Source: Mycoplana dimorpha (GTDB lineage Bacteria > Pseudomonadota > Alphaproteobacteria > Rhizobiales > Rhizobiaceae). From it: a stretch of 64,000 nucleotides of DNA. The notes beneath the pieces were generated by a model. The model did not search any database, was not told where the DNA came from, and saw nothing but the letters and a program-made list of their open reading frames with translations. Location: the NCBI RefSeq assembly GCF_003046475.1, contig NZ_PZZZ01000002.1, positions 434,001-498,000 of the forward strand, read 5' to 3'. Made by a program: the position numbers and the translations under genes. The number at the start of each line of letters is the position of its first letter. Positions within the stretch are counted from its first letter, which is position 1. Shown here piece after piece: positions 4,112-64,000 of this stretch.

Positions 4112-4603
4112 GTGTCGCTGACCGATTTCATTCGCAAGCCGGTGTTCGAAATCTTTCCGCTCGAGGCGGGCGACCGCATGGTGGCCGCCGCCCTGCACAA
4201 GGCGCGTTTCACCCGACCCTGGAGCGACGGCGAGTTGCACGCGCTGTTGGCGCAGGACACCGTGTTCGGTTTCGTGGCCTGGCAGGTGAATGCCCTGGCC
4301 GGCCGCCCGGCCGGCGGCTTCGTGCTGGCGCGTGCGGCGGCGGGCGAGGCGGAAATCCTGACGATCAGCGTCGATGCACGCTTCGAGCGGAGCGGCCTCG
4401 GCTGGCGGTTGATGCAGGCGGCGCTGCGGGAGGCGCGCATGCGCGGCGCCGAGGAGATGTTCCTCGAGGTCGACGAGGGCAACATAGCAGCGCTGCGGCT
4501 CTACGACAGGCTCGGCTTTGCCAAGGTCGGCGAGCGCAAGGCCTACTATGAGAGCGCCGGCGGGCGGTCCACGGCGCTTGTCATGAGGCGCGATCTTCGC
4601 TAG
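4112..4603 (+). CDS. rimI: RimI-type ribosomal-protein alanine N-acetyltransferase (GNAT)
   Basis: A 163-residue GNAT acetyltransferase expected to acetylate the N-terminal alanine of ribosomal protein S18 from acetyl-CoA. Motif A is EILTISVDARFERSGLGWRL, the acetyl-CoA loop R-x-x-G-x-G in a slightly altered form. EMFLEVDEGNIAALRLYDRL is the RimI hallmark, followed by GFAKVGERKAYY. The start is a GTG at 4112, only 5 bases after tsaB stops, which suggests translational coupling. The specific substrate is inferred from synteny. Confidence 0.88.
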   Translation: MSLTDFIRKPVFEIFPLEAGDRMVAAALHKARFTRPWSDGELHALLAQDTVFGFVAWQVNALAGRPAGGFVLARAAAGEAEILTISVDARFERSGLGWRLMQAALREARMRGAEEMFLEVDEGNIAALRLYDRLGFAKVGERKAYYESAGGRSTALVMRRDLR

Positions 4604-4658
4604 TCCCGTTGTCACATGTCAGGGCATTCACATATGCCCGGCCGGACTGCGACGGGAA

Positions 4659-5096
4659 ATGGGGCGAATGACAGAACTGGAAAAAACGCTGGAAGAGCTT
4701 TGCGTCGAGCGCGGCATGCGCATGACCGAGCAGCGCCGCGTGATCGCCCGGGTGCTGGAGAGCTCCGCCGACCATCCGGACGTGGAGGAACTCTATCGCC
4801 GCTCGGCCGAGGTTGATCCGCGCATCTCCATCTCCACCGTCTACCGCACGGTCAAGCTGTTCGAGGACGCCGGGATCATCGAGCGCCACGACTTCCGCGA
4901 CGGCCGCTCGCGCTACGAGACGGTGCCCGAGGAGCACCACGACCACCTGATCGATCTGAAGAGCGGCCAGGTGATCGAGTTCCACTCGCCGGAAATCGAG
5001 GCGCTGCAGGAAAAGATCGCGCGCGAGCATGGCTTCAAGCTCGTCGACCACCGGCTGGAACTCTATGGCGTTCCGCTGAAGAAGGAGGGCGAGTAG
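4659..5096 (+). CDS. mur: Fur-family metal-responsive repressor (Mur/Fur type)
   Basis: A 145-residue Fur-family protein: an N-terminal winged helix (RGMRMTEQRRVIARVLESS, then ISISTVYRTVKLFEDAGII) and a C-terminal dimer/metal domain with EEHHDHLIDLKSGQVIEF. It lacks the CxxC zinc site found in E. coli Fur. In rhizobia the copy between rimI and plsC/miaB is the true Fur orthologue, which acts mainly as the manganese-uptake regulator Mur; the gene symbol follows that knowledge. A second possible start is ATG 4668 (MTELEKTLEELC). No Mur box was found inside the window near this gene. Confidence 0.85.
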   Translation: MGRMTELEKTLEELCVERGMRMTEQRRVIARVLESSADHPDVEELYRRSAEVDPRISISTVYRTVKLFEDAGIIERHDFRDGRSRYETVPEEHHDHLIDLKSGQVIEFHSPEIEALQEKIAREHGFKLVDHRLELYGVPLKKEGE

Positions 5097-5134
5097 GGCG
5101 GTCTGCTGATACGCCGCCTGCTCGCGAGACCCGC

Positions 5135-5923
5135 TTGATCGCCTGGCTCCGCATCGCCCTTGCCCTTTTGTGCCTGACGATCGTGACGCTGGCCTTGCTG
5201 CCGGTTCAACTCGTCGCATTGCGCTTCGACCTGAAACTCCGGCGGCGCGTCCCGCGCCTCTGGCATCGCGCCGCCTGCCGGCTGATCGGCCTGAAGGTGC
5301 GGGTGCACGGCACGCTGGAGAGGCGCCGGCCGCTGATGCTTGCAGCAAACCACGCCTCCTGGAAGGACATCCTCGTCCTCGGCTCGATCGCCGATGTCGT
5401 CTATATCGCCAAGTCCGAGGTTCGCGAGTGGCCGGTGTTCGGTGTCCTTGCCCGCCTGCAGGCGTCGATCTTCGTCGTCCGCGAGGAAAAGCGAAAGACC
5501 GGCGAGCAGGTGAACGAGATCGGCAGCCGGCTCGCCGATGGCGAGATCGTCGTGCTGTTCCCGGAGGGGACGACCTCGGACGGCAACCGGCTCCTGCAGA
5601 TCAAGACCTCGCTGTTCGGCGCCGCGGCGAGCGCGGCCGCCGGAGCGCCCGGCGGCACGGTCTACATCCAGCCCGTATCGATCGCCTATACCGGCATCCA
5701 TGGCATGGCGATGGGGCGCTTCCACCGGCCGATCGCCGCCTGGCCCGGCGACATCGCGATGGCGCCGCACCTGCTCGGCATCCTGAAGGAGGGGGCGCTC
5801 GACGTCGACGTCGATTTCGGCGAGATGATCGCCTACGGGCCCGGCAGCAACCGCAAGGTCGTCAGCCGCGAGGTTGAGGCACGGATTCGCGGCATGCTCG
5901 GCGATCGGCTGCGGGGCCGCTGA
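5135..5923 (+). CDS. 1-acyl-glycerol-3-phosphate-type acyltransferase (PlsC family)
   Basis: Inner-membrane acyltransferase of 262 residues. One N-terminal membrane segment (about residues 6-27) precedes the acyltransferase domain with block I NHASWKD (the H-x4-D catalytic pair) and block III FPEGTTSDGNRL. It transfers an acyl group onto a lysophospholipid or lyso-ornithine lipid; rhizobia have several paralogues (PlsC, OlsA) and the acceptor cannot be fixed from sequence. The start is a TTG at 5135, which puts the membrane segment at the N-terminus; no better ATG lies upstream before the fur stop. Confidence 0.85.
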   Translation: MIAWLRIALALLCLTIVTLALLPVQLVALRFDLKLRRRVPRLWHRAACRLIGLKVRVHGTLERRRPLMLAANHASWKDILVLGSIADVVYIAKSEVREWPVFGVLARLQASIFVVREEKRKTGEQVNEIGSRLADGEIVVLFPEGTTSDGNRLLQIKTSLFGAAASAAAGAPGGTVYIQPVSIAYTGIHGMAMGRFHRPIAAWPGDIAMAPHLLGILKEGALDVDVDFGEMIAYGPGSNRKVVSREVEARIRGMLGDRLRGR

Positions 5924-60340: not shown

Positions 60341-61438
60341 ATGGTACGAAAAACGGGAATTCTGGCCGATCGCGCTATTCGCGCGCTGTTCGATGCCGGC
60401 GGGCTGGCGAGCGAGGCTCCGCTGGATCCAGACCAGGTCCAGCCGGCGAGCCTGGACCTGCGGCTCGGCGCCAAGGCTTTCCGCGTCCGCGCGAGCTTTC
60501 TTCCCGGCCCTTCGCACCTGGTCTTCGACAAGCTCGACCGGCTAAAGCTGCACGAGATCGACCTCTCGGAAGGTGCTGTGCTCGAGACCGGCTGCGTCTA
60601 TATCGTGCCGCTGATGGAACGGCTCGACCTGCCGGTGGATCTCGCTGCCTCCACCAATCCGAAGAGCTCCACCGGTCGCCTCGACATCTTCACCCGCGTC
60701 ATCACCGACCGCGCCCAGGAGTTCGACAAGATTCCGGCCGGCTACACCGGGCCGCTCTACCTGGAAATCTCGCCGCGCACCTTTCCGATCGTCGTGCGCC
60801 GCGGCTCGCGCCTGTCGCAGATCCGCTTCCGAAACGGCAACGCCATCCTTTCTGATGCCGAACTGCTGGCGTTGCACGCCTCCGACACGCTGGTGGCGAG
60901 CGACACGCCGAACGTCTCCGGCGGCGGCATCGCGCTGTCCATCGATCTGAAGGGCACCGGCCCCGACGGGCTGATCGGTTATCGCGGCAAGCGCCACACG
61001 GCCGTCGTCGATGTGGACAAGAAGAACCAGCACGACGTCTTCGATTTCTGGGAGCCGCTGTTCAGCCGCGGCCGCAACGAGCTCATCCTCGATCCGGACG
61101 AGTTCTACATCCTCGTCTCCCGCGAGGCGGTGCACGTTCCGCCGCGCTACGCCGCCGAGATGACGCCCTTCGATCCGCTCGTCGGCGAGTTCCGCGTCCA
61201 TTACGCCGGCTTCTTCGATCCGGGCTTCGGCCATGCCGCCGCCGGCGGCTCCGGCAGCCGCGCCGTGCTCGAGGTCCGCAGCCACGAGGTGCCGTTCATC
61301 CTCGAGCATGGCCAGATCGTCGGCCGCCTCGTCTACGAGCACATGCTGGAGCTGCCTCAAGGCCTGTACGGCGCGGGGCTCGGATCGAACTACCAGGCCC
61401 AGGGGCTGAAGCTGTCCAAGCATTTCCGGTCAGGCTGA
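60341..61438 (+). CDS. dcd: 2'-deoxycytidine 5'-triphosphate deaminase (double-length form)
   Basis: A 365-residue enzyme about twice the length of E. coli Dcd, the form found in rhizobia and other alphaproteobacteria with two Dcd/dUTPase-like folds. The N-terminal half shows PASLDLRLGAKAFRVRASFL, STNPKSSTGRLDIFTRVITD and GYTGPLYLEISPRTFPI; the second half has LILDPDEFYILVSREAVHVP and AVLEVRSHEVPFILEHGQIV, ending GSNYQAQGLKLSKHFRSG. It deaminates dCTP to dUTP. The start at 60341 follows GAGGATGGATC. A diverged copy of its last 28 codons occurs at the right end of the window. Confidence 0.93.
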   Translation: MVRKTGILADRAIRALFDAGGLASEAPLDPDQVQPASLDLRLGAKAFRVRASFLPGPSHLVFDKLDRLKLHEIDLSEGAVLETGCVYIVPLMERLDLPVDLAASTNPKSSTGRLDIFTRVITDRAQEFDKIPAGYTGPLYLEISPRTFPIVVRRGSRLSQIRFRNGNAILSDAELLALHASDTLVASDTPNVSGGGIALSIDLKGTGPDGLIGYRGKRHTAVVDVDKKNQHDVFDFWEPLFSRGRNELILDPDEFYILVSREAVHVPPRYAAEMTPFDPLVGEFRVHYAGFFDPGFGHAAAGGSGSRAVLEVRSHEVPFILEHGQIVGRLVYEHMLELPQGLYGAGLGSNYQAQGLKLSKHFRSG

Positions 61439-61462
61439 CGGCGCTTGACGCTCGGCCGCCGT
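61339..61462 (+). repeat. Direct repeat copy A: 3' end of dcd and following bases
   Basis: The last third of a 100-residue C-terminal segment of dcd plus 24 bases after its stop. It is repeated imperfectly at 63884-64000. Within the copy the 72 bases from TACGGCGCG to the stop differ at about 14 positions (about 80% identity by hand alignment), with a 9-base in-frame deletion just before them. Confidence 0.85.
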
Positions 61463-61830
61463 CCGCCCGAGCGTCCAATGAACTTCAACATCGATGAAGC
61501 TTTGCCACCCAGCATGGCCACAAAGCCGCTGGCACGCTGCGACCGAGTTGCGGCACTTGGGTCTTGCCAACGCGTCTATCGGATTGTGCCTGCATGCATC
61601 GCTGCCTGCGCGGCGAGAGGCGGGTCGGTCTTTACCCTTTTGTATCGATTGTCGATTAACAGACCAGCATTCGAGCGATGCGGCGGTCGGCGTCTTGACG
61701 GGCTTCGCTGGATGGCCTGATGGATTCTCATCCCACCAGCTACGAACTCCATTGTGCCTTGGTTTGAAGTCCAGTTTCAGGCGGCCGCCCAGCCGATACC
61801 AGGCAGGACGGTTTAGAGCAAAGGCCATCC
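61463..61830. other. Gap between dcd and the GGDEF-EAL gene
   Basis: Bases 61447-61475 form a 9-bp stem (GACGCTCGG / CCGAGCGTC) that could be a weak dcd terminator. The rest has no recognised gene; an open frame from 61478 (about 80 codons) shows no family-like sequence and irregular composition. The stretch is more AT-rich than the surroundings around 61655-61675, where a promoter for the cassette may lie. Confidence 0.45.
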
Positions 61831-63453
61831 ATGAGCAAAGCAGCTGCCGCAGCCCGCGATGCGGAACGATTTTTCGATTGCAATCGCCTTGGCCTCCCGG
61901 TCGTCGCTTTTCGCCATGACGGGGGCGTCCAATATGCCAACGAACCGGCAATGCAGCTGGCAGGAGCCGATCCGGCCGCGCAACGGTTGTTCTTCGACCG
62001 GCTCTATCGTGCACGACGGCTTCCAGAGGAGGCATCGGGCATACGACGCACAGGCACCATCGAGTTGGGCGATGGAAGCACCCAGGCAATATGGGAAACA
62101 CCTGGCGACGAGCATGTCGTTGTAACCCTGACCCCATGGGACGAGCCGGGTCCGGAGCAGGGTTTGTTCCCCGTGGACGAACTCACGGGGCTGTGTGGTC
62201 GCTCCGAACTTTTGTTCACGCTCGAGGGCGCGGCAGCGGAGCAACGCGACGACATTGCCGTGTATGCCCTGGATCTCGACCGCTTCAAGTTTGTCAACGA
62301 CACGCTGGGGCATCCCATCGGCGATGCCCTTCTCAAGGCCGTTGCCAAGCGCTTGCGCGGCGCTTGCCGGCAGGACGACCTCATTGCGCGGGTGGGCGGC
62401 GATGAATTCATCATCGTCCAGACGAATGTCAGCGACGTTAACGAAGCGATCAGACTAGCCGAAAGGCTGGTCGATCTTATCGGTCGCACGTATTTGCTCA
62501 GCGGTCATTCGGTGAATGTCGGCGTGAGCGTCGGCATCGCCTTTTCGGGAAACGACGCGCGAGATCCCGAGAGGCTGCTTCAGAACGCGGACCTCGCGCT
62601 TTATCGTGCAAAGAACGACGGGCGCGGCCGTTACGCCTTGTTCGACCCGGAACTGCACGAGAAGATGCAGCGGCGGCGGGCTCTGGAAATTGATCTGCGC
62701 AGGGCGCTTGCCTTCAGGCAGTTCGTGCTTGTTTATCAGCCTCAGGTCGATCTCGTCAGGAACCGTGTAACCGGATTTGAGGCGCTCATCCGGTGGCACC
62801 ATCCCGAGCGGGGCGTGGTGTCGCCGTTGGAATTCATTCCGCTGGCCGAAGAGATCGGGTTGATCACGCAGATCGGCGAATGGGTTCTGCGAACCGCATG
62901 TAAGGACGCGGCCGGATGGCCGGACGACCTGTCGGTCTCGGTGAATGTGTCCCCTGTGCAATTCAGAGGCGGCAACCTGGGCGACATCGTCGTGTCCGCC
63001 TTGGGAGGTGCTGGCTTGCCGGCGCATCGTCTTGAGCTGGAAATCACCGAAAGCGCACTTCTGAATTACACCGACGAAGTTCTTGCCACCCTGAAGTCCG
63101 TCAAGGCGCTCGGGGTCCAGGTGTCTATGGATGACTTCGGGACCGGCTATTCCTCGCTCAGCTACCTGCAGAAATTTCCCTTCGACAAGATCAAGATCGA
63201 CCAGTCGTTTATTCGCGGCGCGGACAGCCGGCTGGAATGTCAGGCTGTACTCCGAGCCGTTGCCGGTCTCGGCATGAGCCTCGGCATGAAGACGATCGCC
63301 GAGGGCGTGGAGACAGAAGAACAGTTGGAACGGGTGCGAGCCGAAGGATGCACTTCCGTGCAGGGCTATTTTACCGGCAGGCCCATCGCCGAGATCGACA
63401 TCGACGCATTCTTGAGCTCGTGGAACCGCCAAAAGGAGGCTGGCAATGAGTAG
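61831..63453 (+). CDS. GGDEF-EAL cyclic-di-GMP enzyme
   Basis: A 540-residue cytoplasmic protein. Residues 1-125 form a PAS-like sensor (GLPVVAFRHDGGVQYANEPA). The GGDEF domain (about 128-290) has ARVGGDEFIIV with an RxxD inhibitory site (RQDD) five residues before it. The EAL domain (about 300-535) keeps GFEALIRW, LELEITES, VSMDDFGTGYSSLSYLQKFP, KIKIDQSFI and AEGVET. Both active sites look intact, so it could make or break c-di-GMP. It overlaps the BLUF gene by 8 bases, implying coupled translation and joint light control. Confidence 0.95.
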   Translation: MSKAAAAARDAERFFDCNRLGLPVVAFRHDGGVQYANEPAMQLAGADPAAQRLFFDRLYRARRLPEEASGIRRTGTIELGDGSTQAIWETPGDEHVVVTLTPWDEPGPEQGLFPVDELTGLCGRSELLFTLEGAAAEQRDDIAVYALDLDRFKFVNDTLGHPIGDALLKAVAKRLRGACRQDDLIARVGGDEFIIVQTNVSDVNEAIRLAERLVDLIGRTYLLSGHSVNVGVSVGIAFSGNDARDPERLLQNADLALYRAKNDGRGRYALFDPELHEKMQRRRALEIDLRRALAFRQFVLVYQPQVDLVRNRVTGFEALIRWHHPERGVVSPLEFIPLAEEIGLITQIGEWVLRTACKDAAGWPDDLSVSVNVSPVQFRGGNLGDIVVSALGGAGLPAHRLELEITESALLNYTDEVLATLKSVKALGVQVSMDDFGTGYSSLSYLQKFPFDKIKIDQSFIRGADSRLECQAVLRAVAGLGMSLGMKTIAEGVETEEQLERVRAEGCTSVQGYFTGRPIAEIDIDAFLSSWNRQKEAGNE

Positions 63454-63892
63454 GCAACTCTATCGGCTCGTCTATTACAGCCGAAACCGGATTTCCAAGG
63501 ATGGCGACGATTTCAGGCAGGCGATCGAGGAGATCCTCGCGACCAGTCGCGACAACAATTCACGCTGCGATGTGACCGGTGCATTGATCTTCAATGCGGG
63601 TTGTTTCGGCCAGGTGCTCGAAGGGCATATTGAGGACGTCGAAGCAACCTTTGAACGGATCCAGCAGGACGAGCGTCACGGCGACGTGTCGCTTCTGGCC
63701 ATCGAGCCGATCGAGCACCGCCATTTTGCCCAATGGTCGATGGCATTGGTTACCGCTCTCCCCAGCTTTGACAGCGTCTTGACCTCGATAGGACTGCAAA
63801 GCGGGTTCGACCCCAGCAAGCTGAACGGTGACGAACTCCATTCCGTATTGCACCGGCTGCTCTTGGAAGAGGAAGCCTTCCTGGCACAATAG
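63446..63892 (+). CDS. Short BLUF blue-light sensor protein (PixD-like)
   Basis: A 148-residue BLUF protein that binds FAD. The light-switch residues are visible: Tyr10 in YRLVYYS, Asn38 in NNSRCDVTGAL, Gln56 in CFGQVLEG, and Trp97/Met99 in FAQWSMAL. RIQQDERHGDV and the length resemble cyanobacterial PixD. It has no output domain of its own, only a short helical C-terminus, so it probably acts on the GGDEF-EAL partner encoded just upstream, with which it overlaps by 8 bases. AAAGGAGG precedes the start. Confidence 0.94.
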   Translation: MSRQLYRLVYYSRNRISKDGDDFRQAIEEILATSRDNNSRCDVTGALIFNAGCFGQVLEGHIEDVEATFERIQQDERHGDVSLLAIEPIEHRHFAQWSMALVTALPSFDSVLTSIGLQSGFDPSKLNGDELHSVLHRLLLEEEAFLAQ

Positions 63893-64000
63893 CTGGAGTT
63901 GTCGTACGGCGCGCGGTTGGGATCGAACTGCCCGGCCCAGGAGCTGAAGCTGTCCCAGCATATTCGCCCCGCGTGATGGCGCGTTGCCCTCGGCCGCTGT
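63884..64000 (+). pseudogene. Diverged remnant of the dcd 3' end (direct repeat copy B)
   Basis: Begins at the BLUF stop codon. From 63893 the frame reads LELSYGARLGSNCPAQELKL followed by SQHIRPA and a stop at 63974-63976. It aligns codon for codon with the last 28 residues of dcd, less PQGL replaced by S. Similarity continues past the stop into non-coding sequence (TCGGCCGCTGT against TCGGCCGCCGT) up to the window edge. There is no start codon or upstream dcd sequence, so it is not an expressed gene. The next part lies outside the window. Confidence 0.85.

Follow-up and report, generated by a model that had tools for sequence, protein, structure and literature searches.

The locus described here raises the question of how two genes that probably link blue light to the turnover of cyclic di-guanosine monophosphate (c-di-GMP) came to lie behind dcd, the gene for dCTP deaminase, and directly in front of a second, degraded copy of the end of that same gene. 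It occupies the last part of the window, by which we mean the whole stretch analysed, namely 64,000 nucleotides of Mycoplana dimorpha (positions 434,001 to 498,000 of contig NZ_PZZZ01000002.1, assembly GCF_003046475.1); positions beyond its right end are given as if its numbering continued. A preliminary description of the window had seen in this layout either an acquired segment that carried the dcd tail of a donor from another strain, or an old tandem duplication. We give an even chance to the reading that a duplicative insertion took place here long ago, at a variable site flanked by dcd and the transfer RNA (tRNA) gene tRNA-Gly(CCC), and left this layout as its scar. In broader terms, the layout is most likely what an ordinary gene acquisition left behind, if in an unusual form.

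The end of dcd occurs twice

The dcd gene (60341-61438, plus strand, with the start codon at 60341 being our choice) is intact, carries the Pfam domains DCD_N and DCD_C and is 90-92% identical to its counterpart in all six genomes sampled from the same genus. Its 3' end forms copy A of the repeat (61346-61556, plus strand), which is made up of the last ~30 dcd codons and a ~118-bp spacer with a 9-bp stem. Copy B (63892-64000 and on to about 64096, plus strand) contains a decayed dcd 3' end of 27 codons and the stop, as compared with 30 codons in copy A, followed by the same spacer. Without gaps, positions 61366-61462 match 63904-64000 with 79% identity over 97 bp, and with gaps and the sequence past the window end included, 148 of 194 positions (76%) agree. 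The dcd end and the spacer (taken as two overlapping pieces) each outscored all of 1000 dinucleotide shuffles, while three tests for a longer repeat on the left or right did not rise above them (327, 752 and 937 of 1000 shuffles were as good), and the left edge at 61346/63892 was set by eye, across a 9-bp gap. These matches confirm the diverged second tail that the preliminary description had placed after the BLUF gene, and the similarity persists in a full alignment. That description was also right that the copy takes in the dcd end plus bases after its stop; its length was put at 28 codons rather than 27, and the homology does not end with the window but runs on for ~96 bp, taking in ~118 bp of sequence behind the stop. 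Since the window is internal to a 703-kb contig, an assembly edge is not the cause of the repeat.

The tRNA-Gly(CCC) gene (64173-64246) lies ~77 bp beyond the end of copy B, and a search of Rfam at the gathering threshold found nothing but this tRNA. An extension of the repeat into the tRNA promoter was suggestive by eye and no better than shuffles. In copy A the fold z-score is -1.43, versus 0.59 for the equivalent stretch of copy B, neither of which is strong.

Between the two copies, two long coding frames were found. The first (61831-63453, plus strand) encodes a GGDEF-EAL protein of 540 residues (Pfam GGDEF, 4.2e-38; EAL, 2.5e-73), in which what we take to be the GGDEF, RxxD and EAL motifs were spotted by eye. 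The second (63446-63892, plus strand), overlapping the stop of the first, encodes a stand-alone BLUF protein of 148 residues (Pfam BLUF, 1.4e-28). The gene calls made earlier for dcd, GGDEF-EAL and BLUF are hence right by Pfam. The BLUF protein has 95 residues from its FxQxLEG motif to its end, as compared with 91-101 in 48 of 53 homologue loci with the motif found, and being of normal length it was not truncated by the repeat joint. The earlier statement that the operon lies exactly between the two tails holds on the right side, where copy B begins at the BLUF stop, and fails on the left, where ~270 bp of other, non-repeated sequence (61557-61830) separate copy A from the GGDEF-EAL start.

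Within this left-hand sequence, a 47-bp piece (61565-61611) is 83% identical to part of the sequence between dcd and tRNA-Gly in one genome of the same genus (G002) and may be a relic of older cargo at the same site; a search at the protein level with the corresponding frame of G002 gave weak matches only.

The operon lies in a variable insertion site

To place the insert in context, we compared 76 stretches downstream of dcd from other genomes of the family, which were hand-picked from the upper part of the match lists and hence are not a random sample (three of them, L085, L072 and L199, cover just 0.35, 3.7 and 5.2 kb downstream of dcd). In 40 of the 76, the distance from the dcd stop to the start of tRNA-Gly is 37-125 bp, in 18 it is 492-12,949 bp, and the remaining 18 showed no tRNA-Gly on that strand within the fetched stretch; the gap in the own genome is ~2.7 kb. 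As the two genes are adjacent in so many relatives and split in others, the site that the GGDEF-EAL/BLUF pair occupies is one of variable insertion, and an arrangement shared by all relatives with no empty site, which would have spoken against acquisition, is not what we see. Two genomes of the same genus have gaps of 10.8 kb (G001) and 8.3 kb (G002), and in the other four tRNA-Gly is not in the stretch fetched. Pfam finds an AMP-binding enzyme in the G001 interval, a chemotaxis receptor in that of G002 and, in G005, a glycosyltransferase on the downstream side of dcd. The site is named in no title found in a search of the open literature by limited wording; it may be of use as a compact, easily scored insertion site in Rhizobiaceae.

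The cargo is equally patchy. At E-values up to 1e-3, BLUF is absent from all six genomes of the same genus and present in 18 of 61 genomes, the own one included, and at E-values up to 1e-25 it is present in 23 of 394 family genomes, again with the own one. The absence from the genus and the 40 tight loci bear out the earlier claim that the segment was inserted. In the 23 family BLUF loci compared with ours, no dcd or tRNA gene was found in the flanks of up to 1.5 kb examined.

In four genomes of one other genus (stretches L077, L184, L187 and L222), too, a GGDEF-like match of 30-32% identity lies between dcd and tRNA-Gly on the opposite strand.

Origin and age of the second tail

Whether copy B came from a foreign dcd or from the own one can be judged from the bases it shares with either. 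We restricted this comparison to a 60-bp core of the dcd end, five positions beside the 9-bp gap being excluded as probably misaligned, and to 29 fetched loci out of 57 non-own genomes with a match. In this core the copies differ at nine bases, and six of 20 residues are changed in copy B (G to R, Y to C, Q to P, G to E, K to Q and F to I), as compared with at most four residues by which any of the 29 relatives differs from copy A and none or one in the six genus members. The base positions of these six changes are invariant in all 29 relatives in four cases and in 28 of 29 in two. Seven of the nine base changes fall in the six residue-changing codons, the figure pooled over the 29 orthologues being 109 of 339. 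Copy B thus looks like a dead, non-coding relic that has lost its constraint, and a role as a coding gene end is disfavoured by its residue changes at conserved positions. Because the changes are concentrated in residue-changing codons, most of the difference between A and B seems, on small numbers, to have arisen after copy B ceased to code, and would reflect time spent in place rather than distance to a donor.

The silent positions point in the same direction. At four third positions, copies A and B agree with one another against the genus majority, and at none does B side with that majority against A (at one further site, with the six genus members divided three against three, the two copies differ). 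In addition, both copies share the spacer, and with the 395 bp after the dcd stop as query, nine of 393 other family genomes gave a match, in pieces of 25-47 bp only. As copy B shares both the silent states and the spacer of its lineage, duplication in the own lineage is a more likely origin for it than transfer of a tail from another strain. It is very improbable that another strain donated the segment along with its own dcd tail, the 20% difference being the distance to that donor, and on this point we depart from the preliminary description, which had offered such a donor. The absence of BLUF from the rest of the sampled genus and the position of the gene pair, alone on a long end branch (0.79) with a weakly supported placement (85/75), would fit such an origin, but the lost constraint, the own-lineage silent states and a divergence from the genus at four-fold sites that is already at least twice as large speak against it. 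The tree identified no donor lineage, with the own pair standing alone at that weakly supported place.

The divergence between A and B is 0.22 per site (Jukes-Cantor) and is alike in the tail (14 of 73 positions) and in the spacer (22 of 114). Four-fold degenerate sites of dcd differ between the own genome and the six genus genomes by 0.46-0.65; the lower value for the repeat suggests that the duplication is younger than the split of the genus, a rough comparison of small counts from differing site classes. An old duplication, one of the two readings in the preliminary description, holds.

The decayed tail would also serve as a built-in clock against which the operon can be read. Both operon genes are open, without in-frame stops, whereas random change at 19% over the same length introduced ~10-11 in-frame stops, and none of 2000 runs under either of two mutation schemes was free of them. 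Since the frames stayed intact while adjacent DNA of presumably the same age changed by about a fifth, the operon genes have probably been under selection, provided that they arrived with the duplication, and such a shared arrival would indicate selection for light/c-di-GMP genes. Neither this clock nor the insertion site alters the general picture of bacterial gene gain.

How the layout may have arisen

Under the reading that we favour, a DNA molecule, probably a circle, would have carried the operon together with ~205 bp of the dcd tail and spacer of the own lineage, and would have recombined in one step with the chromosomal dcd tail in a Campbell-type insertion. The product would have the order dcd with a complete tail, operon, second tail with spacer, and tRNA, which is the order observed; copy A would then have kept its function as the end of dcd, while copy B, being non-coding, would have decayed. 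We infer the circle and this order of events from the layout of the sequence.

Several points weigh against this account. The interval holds no trace of a circle, nor any integrase or other recombination gene that we could see, in keeping with the earlier remark that no integrase is visible in the cassette, and three provirus integrases found at this tRNA elsewhere had no match in the own stretch. A second dcd tail downstream was found in none of the 76 loci (E-values up to 1e-4, within the stretch fetched), the own copy B being detected at 7e-16 as positive control; relatives without the cassette thus have a single tail in these stretches, as had been expected earlier, and the same scar is seen nowhere else in the sample. 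The G+C content, by 300-bp windows, is 0.57-0.65 in the operon versus 0.59-0.70 in the rest of 6 kb, hardly distinct from its surroundings, and so gives no clear compositional sign of a foreign origin. Were the operon a later arrival than the duplication, the argument from its intact frames would set an upper age only. Finally, the same picture would result if a tandem duplication had come first and its joint had then received an insertion.

This last scenario, in which the dcd tail and spacer first underwent a small tandem duplication and the operon entered later, at the joint or close to it, is one that we regard as rather unlikely. It dispenses with the circle and accounts for two copies of the same span that are alike in divergence in tail and spacer, but it needs a second event that hit the start of copy B, exactly at the BLUF stop.

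Another conceivable origin is an integrase-bearing element that attached at the dcd 3' end, or at the nearby tRNA-Gly, supplied a new dcd tail in place of the old one and later lost its integrase; copy A would then be the tail of the element and copy B the displaced original. The tRNA-Gly(CCC) gene beside dcd does serve as a provirus site. It lies directly behind the dcd tail in five of seven viral contigs with such a tail (L140 and L142 seem to be the same sequence), related genes for integrases come next in L137, L138 and L140 (PF00589 was tested on L137 alone), and the same integrase family is found 0.1-2.1 kb behind tRNA-Gly in three of the 76 genomes. A second viral scan, with a profile of the tail, returned the same seven contigs, and the tail peptide had no match among 50,697 phage records. 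We still consider this origin unlikely, as the interval shows no integrase, the insert is located 5' of the tRNA and the proviruses 3' of it, no second tRNA piece longer than 11 bp was found in 18 kb, the copy A side included, the repeat runs ~118 bp beyond the dcd stop, and one of the five contigs, L136, shows no integrase in the single frame scanned.

Elements that integrate into the 3' ends of protein genes are expected to leave a short identical core and to carry an integrase. At this locus a second copy of the gene end is indeed present at the far junction, but the repeat is ~205 bp long, diverged and runs past the stop, and no integrase was found. Judged as an integrative element of a tRNA gene, the insert likewise shows no integrase and no repeat of the tRNA 3' end, while variable insertions in relatives are present. 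In rhizobia, provirus sites at tRNA genes have been described in a report whose relevant passages name tRNA genes other than tRNA-Gly (PMC12429752). As far as those passages go, the likeness is that a tRNA gene marks a repeatedly used insertion site, and the difference is that the present locus yielded neither an integrase nor a tRNA-end repeat and has its insert upstream of the tRNA.

Displaced dcd tails elsewhere

A parallel to the duplicative insertion is found in Shinella sp. PSBB067 (NZ_CP069303.1), where dcd and spacer are followed by a broken tRNA-Gly and an insert of ~1.8 kb. Behind the insert, ~290 bp from the 3' end of dcd recur, again with the spacer and this time an intact tRNA-Gly, and the repeat is 98.6% identical over 278 bp. 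The site is the same, and beyond the insert there is likewise a second, partial dcd 3' end. Unlike our locus, the event is recent, the repeat takes in the tRNA, and the cargo includes an IS4/5-type transposase and a frame without Pfam match. It is one case only, which limits its weight in favour of our reading. A family-wide search for double tails matched 381 of 394 genomes, and two tails were seen in one (G132) among the matches listed; this search is blind to tails that have decayed as far as copy B, and the own genome scores one in it.

In G132, the additional tail (contig C6; L226 9187-9369) is identical to the dcd of G132 itself at 151 of 183 bp, ends three bases past the stop, and lies ~1.2 kb from a Phage_integrase fragment on a contig other than that of dcd. 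The 62-kb viral contig L141 holds a full dcd (4200-5174) and a separate tail fragment (1753-1829); the fragment, 2.4 kb upstream, is identical to the dcd of L141 at 63 of 77 bp, and a frame between the two was judged by eye to be recombinase-like. The tail copy near an integrase fragment and the phage genome with its own dcd plus a stray tail are what an integrase-bearing element would also lead one to expect.

These parallels support the idea that DNA with dcd tails moves. A more general view, which we put forward as doubtful, would be that in Rhizobiaceae the dcd 3' end is targeted again and again by elements that carry a dcd tail, insert by means of it and leave tail fragments behind; the own genome, Shinella sp. 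PSBB067, the G132 tail and the stray tail in the phage genome would then be four traces of the same process.

Relation to known light and c-di-GMP systems

The GGDEF-EAL/BLUF pair itself is a common module, widespread in Alphaproteobacteria. Of 53 fetched loci with homologous BLUF genes, 50 have a GGDEF-EAL match on the strand of the BLUF gene, in 48 cases within 110 bp between aligned ends. The own pair shares this close same-strand arrangement and differs in that its BLUF protein has at most 61% identity (best segment) to the homologues found and sits on the long branch mentioned above.

By analogy, the operon probably works like the blue-light c-di-GMP system PapB-PapA of Rhodopseudomonas palustris, in that blue light would change the BLUF protein, which would act on its GGDEF-EAL partner and thereby alter c-di-GMP turnover; we infer this biochemical function from domain content and gene order. 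Both systems combine a short stand-alone BLUF protein with a separate EAL-domain protein, the two being encoded here by neighbouring genes with overlapping frames. In the relevant passages of one review, PapA is described as a solo EAL protein (PMC8846402), whereas the partner here has both GGDEF and EAL, and we therefore speak of a likeness to that system, as far as those passages describe it, and not of an identity.

To the right of tRNA-Gly, a second module that is possibly related to light occupies positions 64556-73547 (L009 4557-13548) and comprises genes for an SDR protein, a cyclopropane fatty acid synthase, DUF1365, an FAD amine oxidase, an ECF sigma factor, a ChrR-like cupin, DUF2177, TspO, an MFS protein and DUF3833. 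Pairs of rpoE and chrR respond to singlet oxygen, according to the passages on them in one report (PMC11832516). The FAD oxidase of this module is present in three of the six genus genomes, always on a contig other than that of dcd.

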